Made by a program: the position numbers and the translations under genes. Under the pieces are notes generated by a model, which worked only from the letters and a program-made list of their open reading frames with translations, did not search any database and was not told the DNA's origin. A stretch of DNA of 64,000 nt from Treponema sp. (lineage in GTDB: Bacteria > Spirochaetota > Spirochaetia > Treponematales > Treponemataceae): contig JAILIC010000002.1 of NCBI GenBank assembly GCA_024695475.1, positions 1 through 64,000 on the forward strand, given 5' to 3'. Below are positions 51,506-61,508 of this stretch, one piece after another; the stretch's first letter is position 1; each line of letters opens with the position of its first letter.

Positions 51506-53503
51506 TTATGCAGCTTGTACTGCTTTTTCTTTACGAGCAAGCATCAACTGCAATACCAAAATAACTCCACCTACACCATAACCGAGAATATCAGTTACTG
51601 TACCAGGCATAGCTACACAAACACCTGCGACAAAGAGAGCTGCTCTCAATACAGGACTCTTAATCGTTGCAAAGAAGTATCCTGAGACACCACCAGCAAG
51701 GAAGAATACGGCAATAAACAGCATGACACATGCGTATATAATTTCAACCACACTATTAGCCTGTAACAAAATTGCCGGCTGATAAATGAATGCATATGGA
51801 ACTATAAAAGCAACAATAGCAAAGAAGAATGCAGTCCAACCTGTCTTCCATGAAGAACCATTTGCTATACCCGCCGCAGTAAACGAGGCAACACAAACAG
51901 GCGGTGTAATCTGTGCAACAACACCAAAGTAGAAAATGAACATATTAACCATCAACAAAACGGTGCTGGAGCTCATATCTGGGTAGATACCACCAACAAG
52001 ATTTGTCAATGTTGTAGCAAACAAAATATTAGCTATCAAATATGCGGCAACTGTTGGCAGAGCCATACCAAGTATCAAACAACCAATCATAGTAATTACC
52101 AATGCAGGCAACAAATGACTGTTACCAACTTCATTGATAATAGTTGTCAACTTGTTTGCTGCACCAGAACGGACAACAATACCAATCATGACACCACAAG
52201 CAGCAGTCGGAATTGCTATGTTTGCAGCCTGTTTTACACCTGTTAAAATTGCTTGCAACAATTCTTTTGGTGCAAGACGAGTTTCCTTTGAAACATAACA
52301 AATAATAATAGCAAGAGCACTACCTACAAGTGCACTTGTTGGCAACGGCATACCAGCAAAAATCATGACTACCAGTACAATAACTGGAATTAATCGATAT
52401 AAACGTGGTACTACAGGTACAGAAGTATAATGAGTTTCACTACCCTTACCACCAAGATGGTTCTTTTTTGCAATATTGTGCACTAACAAGAATACAGCAA
52501 CATAATATCCTAATGCAGGTAACAAAGCATCAACTGCAATTTTAGCATAGCTGACACCGATCATTTCTGCCATGATAAATGCACCAACACCCATAATAGG
52601 AGGCATTATCTGACCACCAGTAGAAGCAACAGACTCAACAGCAGCAGCCTGTTCTGGGGTATACCCTGCTTTTTTCATAAGAGGAATAGTAAATACACCT
52701 GTTGTTGTTACATTAGCAACTGCACTACCACTTACCATACCCATAAGACCAGAAGATACTACAGAAGCCTTTGCAGGACCACCAGCAGTTTTATCAGACA
52801 ACTTCATACCGCAGTCAATAAGGACCTGACCACCACCACATTGAGAGAACAACGCTCCAAATACAAAGTAGTAGAAAATGGTAGTAACACAAGCAGCCAA
52901 TGGAGAGCCATAAATACCATCTGATGAAAGCGTAAGCATTTCAAAAAAGCGCTGCCACTTCATACCACTAAATCTAAATGGACAAGAAGCTGGTAAATAC
53001 TGACCAAAGAATGCGTAGGCAATAAAGAACAGTACAAAACCTGCCAATGCCATACCCATAGTACGCCAGACACACAAAACAAGAATAATCAAAAGACCAC
53101 AAGAAGCAAAAATATCAGATGGTCTCATTGGATCAACCATCATAACTCGCTGCTGGAAGAATGAGCAGTCTTTTATAAAATACAAAGCAACATAGATTGC
53201 TATTGCAATAGCAGCTATATCAAGAATCCACAACCATTTGTTCTTGAATTTCTCAGCAAATGGTTTATACAGATAAATAAGAATCAAACTTAAAGAAAGA
53301 TGAGAGGAATACGAGATATGCCAATCAAGCGGACGTACCATCGTATTATACAATTCCATACCGAGGAAAATTAATGAGAACACCACGATAGCAACAAAAC
53401 GGACTGTTCCCATCGCAACTTTCTTTTCTTCTTCTTCCTCTTTGGCTATTTCTTTTTCAGCATTACGCTGAAAAAAAGATTTTTTAACTTTAGTTTCGGC
53501 CAT
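51506..53503 (-). CDS. TRAP transporter fused 4TM/12TM permease (TAXI partner)
   Basis: The 665-residue protein is a fusion of the small and large membrane subunits of a TRAP transporter, as is common for TAXI systems. The N-terminal part (to about 170) has four helices; the large subunit has SSGLMGMVSGSAVANVTTTGVFTIPLMKKAGYTPEQAAAVESVASTGGQIMPPIMGVGAFIMAE and GMALPTVAAYLIANI, the substrate-channel signatures. It uses an ion gradient to import the acid captured by the TAXI protein. The first residues are Lys/Glu rich. Two hairpins separate it from the binding-protein gene. AAGGAA precedes the start. Confidence 0.92.
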   Translation of the reverse strand: MAETKVKKSFFQRNAEKEIAKEEEEEKKVAMGTVRFVAIVVFSLIFLGMELYNTMVRPLDWHISYSSHLSLSLILIYLYKPFAEKFKNKWLWILDIAAIAIAIYVALYFIKDCSFFQQRVMMVDPMRPSDIFASCGLLIILVLCVWRTMGMALAGFVLFFIAYAFFGQYLPASCPFRFSGMKWQRFFEMLTLSSDGIYGSPLAACVTTIFYYFVFGALFSQCGGGQVLIDCGMKLSDKTAGGPAKASVVSSGLMGMVSGSAVANVTTTGVFTIPLMKKAGYTPEQAAAVESVASTGGQIMPPIMGVGAFIMAEMIGVSYAKIAVDALLPALGYYVAVFLLVHNIAKKNHLGGKGSETHYTSVPVVPRLYRLIPVIVLVVMIFAGMPLPTSALVGSALAIIICYVSKETRLAPKELLQAILTGVKQAANIAIPTAACGVMIGIVVRSGAANKLTTIINEVGNSHLLPALVITMIGCLILGMALPTVAAYLIANILFATTLTNLVGGIYPDMSSSTVLLMVNMFIFYFGVVAQITPPVCVASFTAAGIANGSSWKTGWTAFFFAIVAFIVPYAFIYQPAILLQANSVVEIIYACVMLFIAVFFLAGGVSGYFFATIKSPVLRAALFVAGVCVAMPGTVTDILGYGVGGVILVLQLMLARKEKAVQAA

Positions 53504-53610: not shown

Positions 53611-54648
53611 TTATTTCATATAACCAACTTCACGGAAGTATCTTTCAGCACCTGGATGAAGTGGAACACCACCAACTTTACCAGGCTGCCAGCAAGTTGC
53701 TGGATCAAATGGTTCCATAGATGGATAGTTCTTTACCAAGTATTCGCGGTTTTCACACATAGCCTTTGTCAAAGCATAAGCAACATCATCAGCCATATCA
53801 ACCTTTACGAATACACAGTCAGGAGTACCAGCATCAACAACATCATTTGGCTGTCCCTTGAATGAACCACCTGGGAGTGTTACACGTTCAAAACCTTCTG
53901 ATACGAAGTAGTCAAGAGTTGCATCTCTCCACTGTGTAAAGTGCAAGTCATTTGTCATTGCATTCTGAACCATACCAGATGATTCTGCAGATGTGTGGTC
54001 AAGAATCATATCAAGCTTACCATTCTTAAGCATATCACCAAGGTCAGAACCACCACCATTAACAACATCACCACCCCAGCTCTTGATATCTTCTGGAGTT
54101 ACTTTCAAATAAGAAAGAAGCAATTCTACACACTTGTAGTCCATAGAACCTTTTGGTGAACAACCGATGCGGATTGGAAGCTTGCGAGCAATAACTTCCT
54201 CAATTTCATCAGTACCATACTTCTTAATGAAAGAAGTAGTCATAAAGTTAACAGCAGAAATTGCACTCAAAGAACCTACCAAAGCACGGAAATCTTTTGT
54301 TGCAGGGCGACCAAGATTACCTTTTTCATAAGCCCATTTTGCAGGAGCACCATTAGCAAAAGCGATATCAGCAGCACCACTTGAGAACAAGTATGGAGCA
54401 GCCATACCACCTGGTGAAGTTGGCTGAACATCAATTGCAGAACCAGCTGGAAGAGCCTTCTGCCACAACTGTGCAAGACCAGCAGATTTTACGTATGTAG
54501 AAGAACCAACCTGATCTGTAGAGAATACCAAGTTTACAGGCTTTGAACTGCTACCCTTAGCAGCACTGCCAGTATCTTTTGAACCATTAGCAAAAAGCAT
54601 ACTTGCTCCAGCCAATACCATGCAGATTACACCAATCTGTTTTTTCAT
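53611..54648 (-). CDS. TAXI-family TRAP solute-binding protein
   Basis: The 345-residue protein has a signal peptide ending SMLFANG, then SKDTGSAAKG linker and a TAXI-type binding fold: NLVFSTDQVGSSTYVKSAGLAQLWQ, PTSPGGMAAPYLFSSGAADIAFANG, GCSPKGSMDYKCVELLL and MLKNGKLDMILDHT. TAXI proteins usually bind small carboxylates such as 2-oxoglutarate or glutamate. The cluster suggests a four-carbon sugar acid here. A strong AGGAGGA site precedes the start. It is followed by hairpins and the fused permease. Substrate specificity cannot be read directly. Confidence 0.88.
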   Translation of the reverse strand: MKKQIGVICMVLAGASMLFANGSKDTGSAAKGSSSKPVNLVFSTDQVGSSTYVKSAGLAQLWQKALPAGSAIDVQPTSPGGMAAPYLFSSGAADIAFANGAPAKWAYEKGNLGRPATKDFRALVGSLSAISAVNFMTTSFIKKYGTDEIEEVIARKLPIRIGCSPKGSMDYKCVELLLSYLKVTPEDIKSWGGDVVNGGGSDLGDMLKNGKLDMILDHTSAESSGMVQNAMTNDLHFTQWRDATLDYFVSEGFERVTLPGGSFKGQPNDVVDAGTPDCVFVKVDMADDVAYALTKAMCENREYLVKNYPSMEPFDPATCWQPGKVGGVPLHPGAERYFREVGYMK

Positions 54649-54726: not shown

Positions 54727-55770
54727 TTACTTACCGACATCCCGGTTCTTTGCAAACTTTGTTGCATAATCAATTGAGTTAAGCAAACTCAATTCGTTCT
54801 GGATACCCTGTCCTGCATGACCAAAAGCAGTACCATGATCTACAGATACTCGGATAATTGGCAAACCTAACGTAATGTTTACACCTTCAACAGCACCCCA
54901 CTTTTGAGCACCTTTATCGTAAACAAACCCCAAAACTTTTAGCGGAGTATGTCCCTGATCATGATATTGAACTACTAATGCATCATACCAACCACCGCGA
55001 GCTTTAGAGAAAGCAGTATCAGGTGGCAATGATCCGATAGCATTAATACCCTCAGCTTTAGCCTGCTCAATTGCAGGATTAATTTCATTGATTTCTTCAT
55101 CACCGAACAAACCGTTTTCTCCGGCATGAGGATTCAAACCACAAACACCGATTCTTGGGTTTTCAATTCCGAGTTGTTTACAAGCCATATTTGCAAGACG
55201 GATACACTCAAGTTCCCTTTCTTTTTTTGCACGCTCACAGGCTTCACGTAAAGAAACATGTGTTGAAACATGAACGACACGTAAATCACTACCAGCAAGC
55301 ATCATTGCATATTTCTTGGTATGAGTATAATCAGCATAAATTTCTGTATGGCCACTATAGTGATGACCAGCAAGATTAATTGCCTCTTTATTCAATGCAT
55401 TGGTAACAGTAGCATCGATTTCACCTTTCATGGCAAGATCAATAACTTTTACAACAGCCTGAAATGCTGCTTCTCCACACATCGCACTTACTTTACCATA
55501 TTCAAACTTTGACATATCAACTAAATCCATATGGTAAACATCAATAGTACCCAATTCAAACTTGGCATCTTTTACATTGGCAATTCTATTTATTTTGGTA
55601 GTTGTGTCCTTTAATATACGAAGAGAATCTTCGATTAGCTGAGCATCACCTACAACAAGTGGGCGACACATTTTGTATACATCAGGATTACGAAGTGCTT
55701 TTACTGAAAGCTCTGGACCACATCCAGCAGGGTCACCCATACTAATACCAATAATTGGTCTATCGTTCAT
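54727..55770 (-). CDS. pdxA2: PdxA2-type 4-phosphoerythronate/threonate dehydrogenase
   Basis: The 347-residue protein belongs to the PdxA family: MGDPAGCGPELSVKAL, GHYSGHTEIYADY with a metal His, GLNPHAGENGLFG, YHDQGHTPLK and DHGTAFGHAG with the other His ligands. Classic PdxA oxidises 4-phosphohydroxythreonine in vitamin B6 synthesis. PdxA2 proteins encoded beside a DUF1537 kinase instead oxidise 4-phospho-D-threonate or -erythronate to dihydroxyacetone phosphate and CO2. The neighbouring kinase gene points to PdxA2. The start with AAGGAG upstream was preferred to one 13 codons earlier. Confidence 0.88.
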   Translation of the reverse strand: MNDRPIIGISMGDPAGCGPELSVKALRNPDVYKMCRPLVVGDAQLIEDSLRILKDTTTKINRIANVKDAKFELGTIDVYHMDLVDMSKFEYGKVSAMCGEAAFQAVVKVIDLAMKGEIDATVTNALNKEAINLAGHHYSGHTEIYADYTHTKKYAMMLAGSDLRVVHVSTHVSLREACERAKKERELECIRLANMACKQLGIENPRIGVCGLNPHAGENGLFGDEEINEINPAIEQAKAEGINAIGSLPPDTAFSKARGGWYDALVVQYHDQGHTPLKVLGFVYDKGAQKWGAVEGVNITLGLPIIRVSVDHGTAFGHAGQGIQNELSLLNSIDYATKFAKNRDVGK

Positions 55771-55824
55771 TTTATTCTCCTTATAGTTGCCGTCATAACG
55801 GCATTGCACATCATGCGCCTTATA

Positions 55825-56993: not shown

Positions 56994-58244
56994 CTATTTA
57001 GCATTTTTATAATTCTGCAAGAAATGAATTGCATCAGTTAACACAGAAGCCCCACCAAATCCACCGGACTTAGTAACTACAGGAAGGTGATCAAGTTTTC
57101 CACCGATACAAATACCCATAGGAGTTCCTGCAGCAATTTCTGTAACTGGTTCAATCCCAAATACGCCCATTTGCCGACACAACTGCATGGTTGTATCACC
57201 ACCAAAGCAAACTATGCCAGCAACTTCTATCGTATCAATCACTTCTTGTGCTATTTTACCTAAACTAACAGACAGTTCAAAAGCAATGTTATAATTTGTT
57301 TCACTATCTTTGAGAACCATGTGAAAATCCTCAAAAAGACTCGAAACTGCAACTATCAAAACCCTTGCACCTGCTCGGACCTGTTCTTGAGCCGCTGCAA
57401 CACATTGTGCCACCGCAACATCTGCGTTATGTGCAATAATGTGTTTTTTATCCATTACAATATAGGAAGTCGCAAAATCTTTTGCTGCCTGCTTTATTTG
57501 CTCTCGAGTCTCCACATTACGTGATGCCGTCAATGCAAAGATAACTCCCGGCTTGCTCGACACAGTACTTGCTATGGCCGGCTGCACCCGTTTTGCCACC
57601 GCTTTTGCATCATGCACTGCAAGCCCCGCAGAACCACACAACACATGGGGAGCATCAAAAGCAGAGACCGTTTCATAGATACATGCCAGATCATCATCAC
57701 AGAGAGTATCAAAAACAAATACTTGTACCCCCTTTTTGATGTTTTCCTGTATATATGTAAAAAGCACGTTTTTTCCGGCACGAATCGTATCCAGATATAC
57801 AGCAGCCACAGCCCGTTTCATATCAGCGGCAATAGTTTTTACCGCATCAATCTTGTTTGAAGCAGCAGTCAAAATTCCATTATGGACAACCCGTCCGTTT
57901 TCAGGATATGCAGGAGCAACAAATGCCAATGAACAATGCATAACATCCATTACCGCTTCTAATTCACTACCAGGATTGCCTCTCAAGACAGAATCTATTT
58001 TTTTATACACATGAACAGATGCATCAGCACAAAATGAAACACACGCATCATGTACAGCCTTATAAGCTTCTGCAGATGATAGAGCACGACTATCAGTATT
58101 TATTGAAACCAACTCATATCCTGAATATTGCTCAGGATTTTGCATACTTGATAATCCTACATTGACAATTGACGATACTCCATATTTTCGGTATTGCACT
58201 GCAGTATCATTGGCACCTGTCAAATCATCCGCTATAACAATCAT
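56994..58244 (-). CDS. Four-carbon acid sugar kinase (DUF1537/DtnK-OtnK type)
   Basis: The 416-residue protein is of the DUF1537 family that phosphorylates D-threonate, D-/L-erythronate or similar acids: IADDLTGANDTAVQYRKYG, KKIDSVLRGNPGSELEAV, APAYPENGRVVHNGIL, CGSAGLAV, CFGGDTTMQ and VTKSGGFG. Its product would feed pdxA2. I start at the second ATG, whose GGAG lies 7 bases upstream. This fits the sigma-54 promoter, whose predicted start point leaves a leader of only about 11 bases. The gene heads the main operon. Confidence 0.88.
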   Translation of the reverse strand: MIVIADDLTGANDTAVQYRKYGVSSIVNVGLSSMQNPEQYSGYELVSINTDSRALSSAEAYKAVHDACVSFCADASVHVYKKIDSVLRGNPGSELEAVMDVMHCSLAFVAPAYPENGRVVHNGILTAASNKIDAVKTIAADMKRAVAAVYLDTIRAGKNVLFTYIQENIKKGVQVFVFDTLCDDDLACIYETVSAFDAPHVLCGSAGLAVHDAKAVAKRVQPAIASTVSSKPGVIFALTASRNVETREQIKQAAKDFATSYIVMDKKHIIAHNADVAVAQCVAAAQEQVRAGARVLIVAVSSLFEDFHMVLKDSETNYNIAFELSVSLGKIAQEVIDTIEVAGIVCFGGDTTMQLCRQMGVFGIEPVTEIAAGTPMGICIGGKLDHLPVVTKSGGFGGASVLTDAIHFLQNYKNAK

Positions 58245-58265
58245 TATTAACTCCACAGTTGTAAT

Positions 58266-58282
58266 AGCAAGGAGCGTGCCAA
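58266..58282 (-). promoter_or_regulatory. Sigma-54 promoter of the sugar-acid operon
   Basis: On the minus strand TTGGCAC-N5-TTGCT, with the -24 GG and the -12 GC 10 bp apart as sigma-54 requires. Transcription would start near 58255, just ahead of the kinase ribosome site. No sigma-70 pair is seen nearby, and a sigma-54 activator gene lies upstream. Confidence 0.88.
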
Positions 58283-58446
58283 TTTTACGGAAAGCTATTC
58301 ATTATTTTTGAAGAACATATAAAAACAGAAAGACAGATAAAACGTATCTAAGAAAACTACTGCAAAAATATGCATATTGTACCAAACGTTACTGTTTATA
58401 TCAGCAAGAGTATTCGTACAAAAAAAAACTGCGACATTTCAAATAT

Positions 58447-58504
58447 ATGTTGCAGTAATGCAACATGTTGCAAAATAGTAACATAATGTTGCATTTTACA
58501 ACAT
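58447..58504 (-). promoter_or_regulatory. Three tandem upstream activator sites
   Basis: ATGTTGCA-GTAA-TGCAACAT (58447-58466), ATGTTG-N8-TAACAT (58465-58484) and ATGTTG-N7-CAACAT (58486-58504) are consecutive inverted repeats of one pattern. They lie about 200-240 bp upstream of the predicted start point and begin right after the activator's stop codon, the usual place for a sigma-54 enhancer. The remaining sequence down to the promoter is AT-rich and could be bent. Confidence 0.8.
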
Positions 58505-58506
58505 TG

Positions 58507-60423
58507 TTATTTCAGTTTACGCCAGAGTGTTGATCGATTAATTCCTAACACAGCACACGTCTTTGCCACCGATTTACCACTTTGCTCATACACCTGCTGT
58601 ATGTAGGCTTGTTCAGCATCTTTCAAAGACAAAAACGAGCTTCCGTGACTTTCCATTGATATAGAGTCACCAGATGATTTTGAAACATCATCTGTGTCAT
58701 CATCATACGAATCATAGGTCTCGGATAATCCAAGTGATAAATCACGCAAGGTAATCTGTGGATTATCACAGATGATAACCGCCCGCTCTATGAGGCTTTG
58801 TAACTCACGAACATTTCCTTCATATTTATGTTCTTGCAACCAGGTTATCGTTTCAGGAGTAAAGCCCTGAATATCTTTCGCATATTGACTACAATACCGC
58901 GCAAGAAAACGCTTTGATAACAGCTCTATGTCATCTGGACGTTCATTTAATGACGGAATATACAAACTTAACGTATTAATACGATACAACAAATCACGAC
59001 GAAATTTACCCTCTCGTACTAATCCATGCAAGTTACGGTTTGTAGCACAGATAAGTCGCACATCAAGAGGAATAATTGCATCTCCTCCAATACGCATCAC
59101 TTCATGCTCCTGTACAACACGCAGCAACCGCCCCTGCAGTTCAAGCGGAAGTTCTCCTATCTCATCTAAAAACAAGGTACCAGTATGAGCAAGTTCAAAC
59201 ATCCCCTCTTTACCGCCCTTGCTACTTCCTGTAAATGCACCTTCCGCATAACCAAATAACACGCTTTCTATCAATGCAGGAGGCAAAGCTGCACAGTTAA
59301 CCGCAACAAAAGGTGCATACCGCCGTTGACTTTCGTTATGAATACTCTGAGCAAACAACTCCTTACCAACACCACTTTGTCCTTCGATTAAAACTGCGGA
59401 GTTGTAATTACTTATTTTTTTTGCTATTGCAATACAATCTGCTATCTTTTTACTTTTGTAAACAATCGTATTAAAAGAATATTTTGCAACAAACCCCTTA
59501 TCGATCATTTTGAGGCGGATATTTTTTTCACGAGTCTGTACTTCGGTAACATCCTGAAAAACAGTTATAGACCCACGAAACGCTCCACTCTGAACAATTG
59601 GCGAATTACTGGCTACTATCTTGGTCACACCAATCTGCTTAATTTCATCAGAAAAAGCAATGCCTTTTTCAATTTGCTCAATAATTGCACCATACGTTCT
59701 GTATGCACTCAACGGCTTACCCAACATTTCCAGCTGCGAAAGCCCAAAAATACGACATGCAGGCCTATTAACGGCAACTATTATGTTATGCTCATCTGTG
59801 GCAAGCACACCGTCATGCACGCTATCAGTTAGAGTCCGATATTTATCTGCCAGCTCCTGCTCACGATTAACAGCAGCGAGCATACGTTGAGCCTCATTAA
59901 TGGCATTGAGCAGAGCCCTCTCACCACTTTCAAGCAAATAGCAGGTAAAGCCCAATTCTTGTCCAATACGGCAGGTAACCGCGTCTCCAACAATAACATG
60001 GGCTCCTTTTTGACCGCACTCTCTAATTTTCTTGGCTACATCGTCCTTGTCGCACAGTTCTGCCTTGATTATTTTTTTACCAAACTGACTCAGTAATTCA
60101 TAACCACTCATAATGTTTGCATATCCGACAACAGCGATCACATCAGAGACTGACTGTAATTCTTTTATCATGTCAGCCATATCTATTGCACTGATACGGA
60201 TTTCAACAACAGGCACCGGAGAAACATAATGTATCATAGAATACGTACCACCACGGCTAATAAGAACCTTTGCTCCATCATCAACCGCACGTGACGCTGC
60301 TATCAAGCCATCTGACAAATCACCGAGGACAGCACTGACATTTTTAAAGCCCATTTCTTCGATGATGCGGTTTGCATCCGCAAGCATCTTTTTATAGGGG
60401 GCAACAAGGACAATTTCACTCAT
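58507..60423 (-). CDS. PrpR-type sigma-54-dependent activator
   Basis: The 638-residue protein has a PrpR_N sensor domain (to about 180: VLVAPYKKMLADANRII, ISRGGTYSMI, RISAIDMADMI), a PAS domain (about 200-300), an AAA+ core with EGQSGVGKELFAQSIH, the sigma-54-contacting GAFTGS, LFLDEIGELP, NRNL and RDLLYRIN, and a C-terminal Fis-type helix-turn-helix (CAVLGINRSTLWRKL). PrpR_N proteins sense small acids or their CoA/aldol products. It should bind the inverted repeats just downstream of its gene and activate the kinase operon. The start overlaps the M24 peptidase stop by 4 bp. Confidence 0.93.
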   Translation of the reverse strand: MSEIVLVAPYKKMLADANRIIEEMGFKNVSAVLGDLSDGLIAASRAVDDGAKVLISRGGTYSMIHYVSPVPVVEIRISAIDMADMIKELQSVSDVIAVVGYANIMSGYELLSQFGKKIIKAELCDKDDVAKKIRECGQKGAHVIVGDAVTCRIGQELGFTCYLLESGERALLNAINEAQRMLAAVNREQELADKYRTLTDSVHDGVLATDEHNIIVAVNRPACRIFGLSQLEMLGKPLSAYRTYGAIIEQIEKGIAFSDEIKQIGVTKIVASNSPIVQSGAFRGSITVFQDVTEVQTREKNIRLKMIDKGFVAKYSFNTIVYKSKKIADCIAIAKKISNYNSAVLIEGQSGVGKELFAQSIHNESQRRYAPFVAVNCAALPPALIESVLFGYAEGAFTGSSKGGKEGMFELAHTGTLFLDEIGELPLELQGRLLRVVQEHEVMRIGGDAIIPLDVRLICATNRNLHGLVREGKFRRDLLYRINTLSLYIPSLNERPDDIELLSKRFLARYCSQYAKDIQGFTPETITWLQEHKYEGNVRELQSLIERAVIICDNPQITLRDLSLGLSETYDSYDDDTDDVSKSSGDSISMESHGSSFLSLKDAEQAYIQQVYEQSGKSVAKTCAVLGINRSTLWRKLK

Positions 60424-61508
60424 CCAATCACTTTCCAGTGCTTATCTACAGAGTTTAAGACTTCGCATCCGTCTTTTGTCACCAGTACAAGATCTTCGAC
60501 ACGGACACCAAATTTACCTTGCAGATATATACCCGGCTCTATAGAAAAAATCATGCCCTCTTTTGCAACATTTGTATTAGCGGAACTAACATCGCCCTGT
60601 TCATGATCACTCTGTCCAATAAAGTGTCCCAAGCGATGGTTAAACTGCTCGCCATATCCAGCCTGAGCAATAAGATCACGAGCAGCTGCATCTATATCGC
60701 AAAAGCGTACCCCCGGCTTGATAATGCTTTCAGCTTTTTCATTTGCCATGCGGACTAAATCATGAATCTTTGTATATTCCTCTGGAGCTTTTTTAAAGAA
60801 GAAAGTACGAGTCATATCTGAACAGTAGCGATTTTTTTGACACCCCATATCAATAAGTACACAATCACTTTCCTGTACAACAGTATCATCTGGCTCGTGA
60901 TGAGGATCAGCGGCATTCTTACCAAATGAAACAATAGTTGTAAACGAAGGCTTTTCAGCGCCCTCAGCTTTAAACTGTGCATCGATATACTCTGCAACCT
61001 GCTTTTCGGTCACACCAGGTTTTACAAATGCAGCACCACGCTGGATACAGACATCATTTACACGAGAGGCTTCTTTCATCAAACGCTGTTCTTCAGCATC
61101 TTTGCAAGCACGAGCATCATCTACACAAGAAGAACCCAGTACATAGGTAGCTTCTGGATTATGTTCCATAAGAGGAATTAAAAAACGTGCCGGCCACACC
61201 TTATCAATACCGATTCTACCCTTGCTAGCAACATTACGAGCCATAGTACCCATAATGTCATCAGTATCACTTGTCCAGACTTCAGTAAAACCAGAGTCAT
61301 GAATATTGTATAACTTATTAAGAAAAAAACGATGTTCCCCATCTTGTGATAAATACAAAGCAAACAAGCGCTCATACGGCTCGTTATATATACCTGTCAA
61401 ATACCAAATACTCTGTGGATCACTTACAACAAGACCATCGAGTTTAGCAACAGCCATAGCATCAAGAACACGTTTCATACGATCAGCATATAACGTTTTT
61501 TTATCCAT
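60420..61508 (-). CDS. M24-family (Xaa-Pro) peptidase-like protein
   Basis: The 362-residue protein has a creatinase-like N-terminal half and a pita-bread metallopeptidase half with the metal ligands Asp in LIDMGCQKNRYCSDMTRT (two), His in GHFIGQSDHE, Glu in IFSIEPGIY and Glu in VRVEDLV. The GHFIGQSDHE loop departs from the usual GHGIGLxxHE. It may cleave Xaa-Pro bonds or a small amide, or process a metabolite. It heads the transcript containing the activator gene. AAGGAGAG precedes the start. A link to the sugar-acid pathway is not obvious. Confidence 0.85.
   Translation of the reverse strand: MDKKTLYADRMKRVLDAMAVAKLDGLVVSDPQSIWYLTGIYNEPYERLFALYLSQDGEHRFFLNKLYNIHDSGFTEVWTSDTDDIMGTMARNVASKGRIGIDKVWPARFLIPLMEHNPEATYVLGSSCVDDARACKDAEEQRLMKEASRVNDVCIQRGAAFVKPGVTEKQVAEYIDAQFKAEGAEKPSFTTIVSFGKNAADPHHEPDDTVVQESDCVLIDMGCQKNRYCSDMTRTFFFKKAPEEYTKIHDLVRMANEKAESIIKPGVRFCDIDAAARDLIAQAGYGEQFNHRLGHFIGQSDHEQGDVSSANTNVAKEGMIFSIEPGIYLQGKFGVRVEDLVLVTKDGCEVLNSVDKHWKVIG

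Follow-up and report, generated by a model that had tools for sequence, protein, structure and literature searches.

Activators of sigma-54 RNA polymerase bind upstream activating sequences (UAS) as dimers, assemble once they have bound a ligand, make the DNA loop and remodel the closed complex, an established biology that is set out in the main text of Nie et al. 2019 (PMC6615313). The same main text describes a UAS class in the Clostridiales, TGT-N10-12-ACA, for PrdR, AdhR, BldR, MdeR and others, and states that 65% of the Clostridiales activators control one operon. The E. coli activator PrpR has the helix-turn-helix (HTH) sequence GISRTTFWRR, and TGTTTCA-like half-sites are present upstream of an exact -24/-12 element, TGGCACACCCCTTGCT.

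The locus described here lies in a 64,000-nucleotide stretch of Treponema DNA, which is called the window. The gap between an activator gene and a kinase gene appears, from its sequence and that of its relatives, to be a complete sigma-54 control region in which a PrpR_N activator on three inverted repeats (dyads) drives the -24/-12 promoter of the kinase operon, and we put the probability of this reading at roughly nine in ten. Activator, promoter, target operon and DNA motif would then form one testable unit in Treponema.

Activator, kinase operon and promoter

On the minus strand, an M24 peptidase gene (61508-60420) is followed by the activator gene (60423-58507), a gap of 262 bp, the DUF1537 kinase gene (58244-56994) and four further genes, as follows.

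58507-60423, minus strand: sigma-54 activator (bacterial enhancer-binding protein), 638 aa; Pfam domains PrpR_N, PAS, Sigma54_activat (AAA+) and HTH_8
58510-58626, minus strand: HTH_8 DNA-binding domain of the activator, residues 600-638; recognition helix GIN629-R630-STLWRKLK
56994-58244, minus strand: DUF1537 (four-carbon acid sugar) kinase, first gene of the operon; PF07005 and PF17042
55825-56979, minus strand: iron-containing alcohol dehydrogenase (Fe-ADH); domain match
54727-55809, minus strand: PdxA-family dehydrogenase (PdxA2-like); domain and NCBIfam matches
53611-54648, minus strand: TAXI-type TRAP solute-binding protein; domain and NCBIfam matches
51506-53503, minus strand: TRAP fused permease; domain and NCBIfam matches

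The activator has the AAA+ sigma-54 interaction domain, GAFTGS loop, Walker A motif and Fis-type HTH of a bacterial enhancer-binding protein, and both loop and Walker A are intact. The first-pass annotation had placed the gene for a PrpR-type activator with an intact GAFTGS loop directly before the repeats; the position is correct (the dyads begin 2 bp past the stop codon), and the type holds at the level of the PrpR_N domain but not for PrpR itself. At 329 bits, the score against the propionate regulator (TIGR02329) was below the curated equivalog cut-off (499 bits), and the function of the operon is not propionate catabolism. An assignment to PrdR (NF041552) was rejected as well (379 bits versus a curated cut-off of 795). 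The M24 peptidase gene (60420-61508) overlaps the start of the activator gene; it is kept beside the activator in genomes G122 and G154 and is replaced in G034.

The best NCBIfam match of the kinase is the D-threonate kinase DtnK (NF047819), at 214 bits against a cut-off of 450, and the PdxA-like protein resembles D-threonate-4-phosphate dehydrogenase with a score below the curated cut-off. Because both enzymes fall under the curated D-threonate cut-offs, only a class of likely substrate, the four-carbon acid sugars, can be proposed.

Two elements lie directly upstream of the kinase gene.

58266-58282, minus strand: -24/-12 sigma-54 promoter, TTGGCACGCTCCTTGCT; exact match, conserved in orthologues
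58251-58255, minus strand: predicted transcription start (~58255) and Shine-Dalgarno GGAG; from promoter geometry

The promoter had been called near-perfect at first pass, and is in fact an exact match to TTGGCAY-N5-TTGCW with the GG and GC ten bases apart. The sequence TGGCACNNNNNTTGCW has one exact match in the window (58266-58281, minus strand), and the full 17-mer, TTGGCACGNNNNTTGCT, likewise occurs there once. The earlier reading had been made to depend on an rpoN gene in the genome, and one is present (Sigma54_DBD at G000:C159, E = 1.8e-48). The kinase start is the ATG at 58244, supported by the motif M[IV][VI]IADDLTGAND that is conserved in relatives. A mechanically assigned GTG at 58256 coincides with the transcription start expected near 58255 and is therefore not the protein start. 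Only a short leader, with the GGAG, would separate the start of transcription from the ATG.

Three dyads and an overlapping hairpin

The remaining features of the gap lie nearer the activator gene. The dyad sequences are given on the plus strand.

58447-58466, no strand: predicted UAS dyad nearest the promoter, ATGTTGCAGTAATGCAACAT; perfect 8-4-8, overlapping the middle dyad by 2 bp
58465-58484, no strand: predicted UAS dyad, middle, ATGTTGCAAAATAGTAACAT; imperfect, 2 mismatches
58486-58504, no strand: predicted UAS dyad furthest from the promoter, ATGTTGCATTTTACAACAT; 8-3-8, 1 mismatch
58420-58456, minus strand: possible intrinsic terminator of the activator gene, hairpin ACTGC.ACAT/ATGT.GCAGT followed by T9; RNA fold -8.1 kcal/mol, z -2.6

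The array has the form TGTTGCA-N3/4-TGCAACA in copies about two helical turns apart, with dyad centres 189, 207 and 228 bp upstream of the -12 C. Three ATGTTG/CAACAT inverted repeats had been reported 200-240 bp upstream. All three dyads are present, at about -201 to -240 from the predicted start site, although the exact hexamer pair is found in only two of them. None of 2000 dinucleotide shuffles of the gap reached its observed score (p < 0.0005). As in the TGT-N10-12-ACA class, the inverted TGT/ACA repeats are multiple, lie 100-250 bp upstream and are conserved in orthologues.

The closeness of the repeats to the activator stop codon, and the overlap of the hairpin and T9 (58456-58420) with the nearest dyad, would also suit an RNA element, the repeats then being the transcription terminator of the activator gene. 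The hairpin covers half of that dyad and is not conserved, since it was found with its T9 in this genome only (one of six gaps); the dyads come without T-runs, and a simple scan detected no terminator. Hairpin and T9 may terminate the activator transcript, and terminator and UAS may well coexist in this genome.

The array in related genomes and in the host genome

The motif (TGTTGCA, 3 or 4 bases, TGCAACA) was defined from the window only and then scored in the sequence preceding the -24 element at six orthologous operons, against 2000 dinucleotide-preserving shuffles. In five of the six regions no shuffle matched the summed score of the three best dyads; in the sixth p was 0.002. Conservation of the repeats in orthologous gaps had been named at first pass as a check on the reading, and each of the six Treponema-family genomes with the operon has the array, together with a -24/-12 element of the TTGGCACG type in the control region. 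Relative to the -12 C the dyads are about 140-230 bp upstream. Their spacing is close to two helical turns (~18-24 bp) where the case is clear and ~30 bp in G122, where they are weaker and are overlapped by a perfect hairpin whose sequence is different. In G045 one member of the best-scoring triplet is a chance register, and a MAFFT alignment placed the dyad arrays out of register.

G122, G154 and G034 share the gene order of the window, activator before kinase. The activator orthologue of G045 and G066 (64-65% identical) lies beside unrelated genes, and the kinase, Fe-ADH and PdxA genes are elsewhere on the chromosome; in G066 activator and operon are far apart (2.69 Mb versus 0.117 Mb). The array and the -24/-12 element are still found upstream of the kinase in both genomes, so the repeats go with the operon rather than with the 3' end of the activator gene, which argues against a terminator, autoregulation and leftover homology. 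With the array in these genomes not behind the activator gene, we consider the terminator reading of the repeats very improbable. The prediction that the dyads are the site of this activator gains support from the same two genomes, in which the enhancer would have been kept by the operon even after the activator gene moved away. No array was seen at their activator loci (L049:5941-10022, L050:5636-9781), where the activator gene is divergent from a DUF3737 gene and a MalY/PatB-like aminotransferase gene.

Six of 274 family genomes have an orthologue of the N-terminal part of the activator, and the same six have one of the kinase (E <= 1e-50 for both, with a contig-truncated kinase copy in G154 counted). 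Outside this family, G546 has an activator-kinase pair with two TGTTG dyads at the corresponding position (p 0.0005). In G572, where operon and promoter are conserved, TGTTGCA dyads are absent and two TGTTTA-type dyads are found instead, so not every member of the family has the motif.

Genome-wide checks of the host were made by pattern search. Exact TGGCACNNNNNTTGCW sites number 8, versus 5 for the reversed control. The studied gap had an array score of 39, and the regions upstream of the other scored candidates stayed at or below 29. A search for the repeat near other -24/-12 promoters, proposed at first pass, found the array at no other candidate site examined. Neither a -24/-12 element nor dyads are present upstream of the second DUF1537-PdxA operon of the genome (L092), and no related DNA was found in plasmids. 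The genome has dozens of single dyads with up to 2 mismatches, which leaves the array as the only specific feature; by eye, in the first 100 of 146 promoter places, none of these single dyads had a -24/-12 element at the right distance and strand. This abundance would suit chance palindromes in AT-rich DNA, yet the shuffle tests in six regions and the conservation in unlinked positions contradict such an origin of the array, which we regard as extremely unlikely. Among the candidate promoters examined, the check gives a predicted regulon of one operon, which is usual for such activators (65% of those in the Clostridiales; PMC6615313).

Two other exact -24/-12 elements were seen in the host genome. 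One, TTGGCACATGTCTTGCT, at L097:1501-1517 (G000:C143:38733-38749), is ~58 bp before the gene for a sigma-70 family factor that has regions 1.2, 2, 3 and 4 and is RpoD/RpoS-like, an arrangement reminiscent of the Borrelia RpoN-RpoS cascade. The other, TTGGCACACAACTTGCT, at L094:1501-1517 (G000:C9:14841-14857), is ~51 bp before a 303-aa ORF whose first 250 residues gave no Pfam family match.

Recognition helix, mechanism and known systems

Asn629 and Arg630 of the activator align with Asn84 and Arg85 of Fis. In the Fis-DNA structure, Arg85 contacts G(+/-7) and Asn84 contacts +/-4 (PMC4784862), and the 17-bp dyad has an invariant G at -7 and a varying base at -4, as that structure would require. 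It is an evenly poised question whether, in PrpR_N activators, the fifth base of TGTTxCA, at dyad position -4, is set by the residue with which the recognition helix starts, Asn629 in this case; under the proposed rule Asn, Asp or His would read TGTTGCA and Ser or Gly would read TGTTTCA. Among PrpR_N activators of the phylum at loci with a callable dyad (at least 12 of 14), Asn, Asp or His was paired with TGTTG at 8 loci and Ser or Gly with TGTTT at 6 (Fisher p 0.0003; when the Treponema clade is taken as a single count, 0.002). At L051 of G034 the base is A by the single best dyad and G by the three-dyad sum; counted as an exception, it gives p 0.0014. Since the threshold and the residue grouping were picked after part of the data had been seen, and related loci are not independent, these values make the rule a hypothesis rather than proof. 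G122 is ambiguous between G and T at the half-site base, and many S- and D-type loci have no callable dyad. In G572, grouped with G034 in the tree at 89/87 support, the residue is Ser and the dyads are of the TGTTTA type. The covariation of HTH residue and half-site base suggests a rule in line with the solved Fis-DNA contacts and, if that rule is true, the UAS of many uncharacterised activators could be predicted from protein sequence alone. At L205 and L211, in other Spirochaete families, perfect TGTTGCA-N4-TGCAACA dyads lie just after the stop codon of an activator that ends GMDRTTLYR and are followed by a -24/-12 element.

The dyads might instead be the operator of another regulator, such as a GntR- or LacI-like repressor, with the activator binding elsewhere or acting without an enhancer. 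Borrelia offers a spirochaete precedent in BosR, which was reportedly added to RpoN control. A Xanthomonas citri protein called PrpR binds GTTGCAA-N2-TTGCAAC, in which these half-sites stand 4 bp apart, and works as a repressor (PMC12153269). A location ~190-230 bp upstream of the -24/-12 element, as tandem dimer sites two turns apart, speaks against this reading and for the activator; so do the co-occurrence of array and activator and the covariation of the motif with the activator HTH in other lineages. We therefore consider a different regulator improbable.

If the PrpR_N activator does act through the dyads, sigma-54 RNA polymerase would wait at the -24/-12 element (58282-58266) while activator dimers bind the three TGTTGCA-N3/4-TGCAACA dyads, which at 18-21 bp spacing would lie on one face of the helix. 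An intracellular ligand, sensed via the PrpR_N/PAS part, would trigger the bound dimers to assemble into an AAA+ ring; the DNA would loop and the GAFTGS loop would remodel the closed complex. A single operon (DUF1537 kinase, Fe-ADH, PdxA2-like enzyme and TAXI-TRAP importer) would thereby be switched on, for the uptake and breakdown of a four-carbon acid sugar, e.g. a threonate.

The open-licence literature searched gave no UAS for a Treponema sigma-54 activator, and the motif or the rule may be reported elsewhere. Like the present locus, the E. coli PrpR-prpBCDE system has a PrpR_N-type sigma-54 activator with a Fis-type HTH, and its catabolic operon is preceded by an exact -24/-12 element (TGGCACACCCCTTGCT) that has an array of short, inverted half-sites on its upstream side. 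It differs in its half-sites (TGTTTCA-like rather than TGTTGCA), its divergent activator gene, its propionate (2-methylcitrate) substrate and the HTH Ser where the Treponema activator has Asn. The Clostridiales UAS, as given in the main text of PMC6615313, also have TGT and ACA 11-12 bp apart, several sites 100-250 bp upstream of the promoter and an activator gene that usually adjoins its one target operon, whereas the present case concerns Spirochaetes, a PrpR_N activator and a DUF1537/PdxA2 operon, a target that this main text does not name. D-threonate/DUF1537 operons (DtnK, PdxA2; NF047819, NF002891) share the pair of kinase and PdxA-type dehydrogenase; here an Fe-ADH and a TAXI-TRAP importer are added, both enzymes score below the cut-offs and control would be by sigma-54. 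The parts are of a familiar kind, and the DNA motif is newly defined here.
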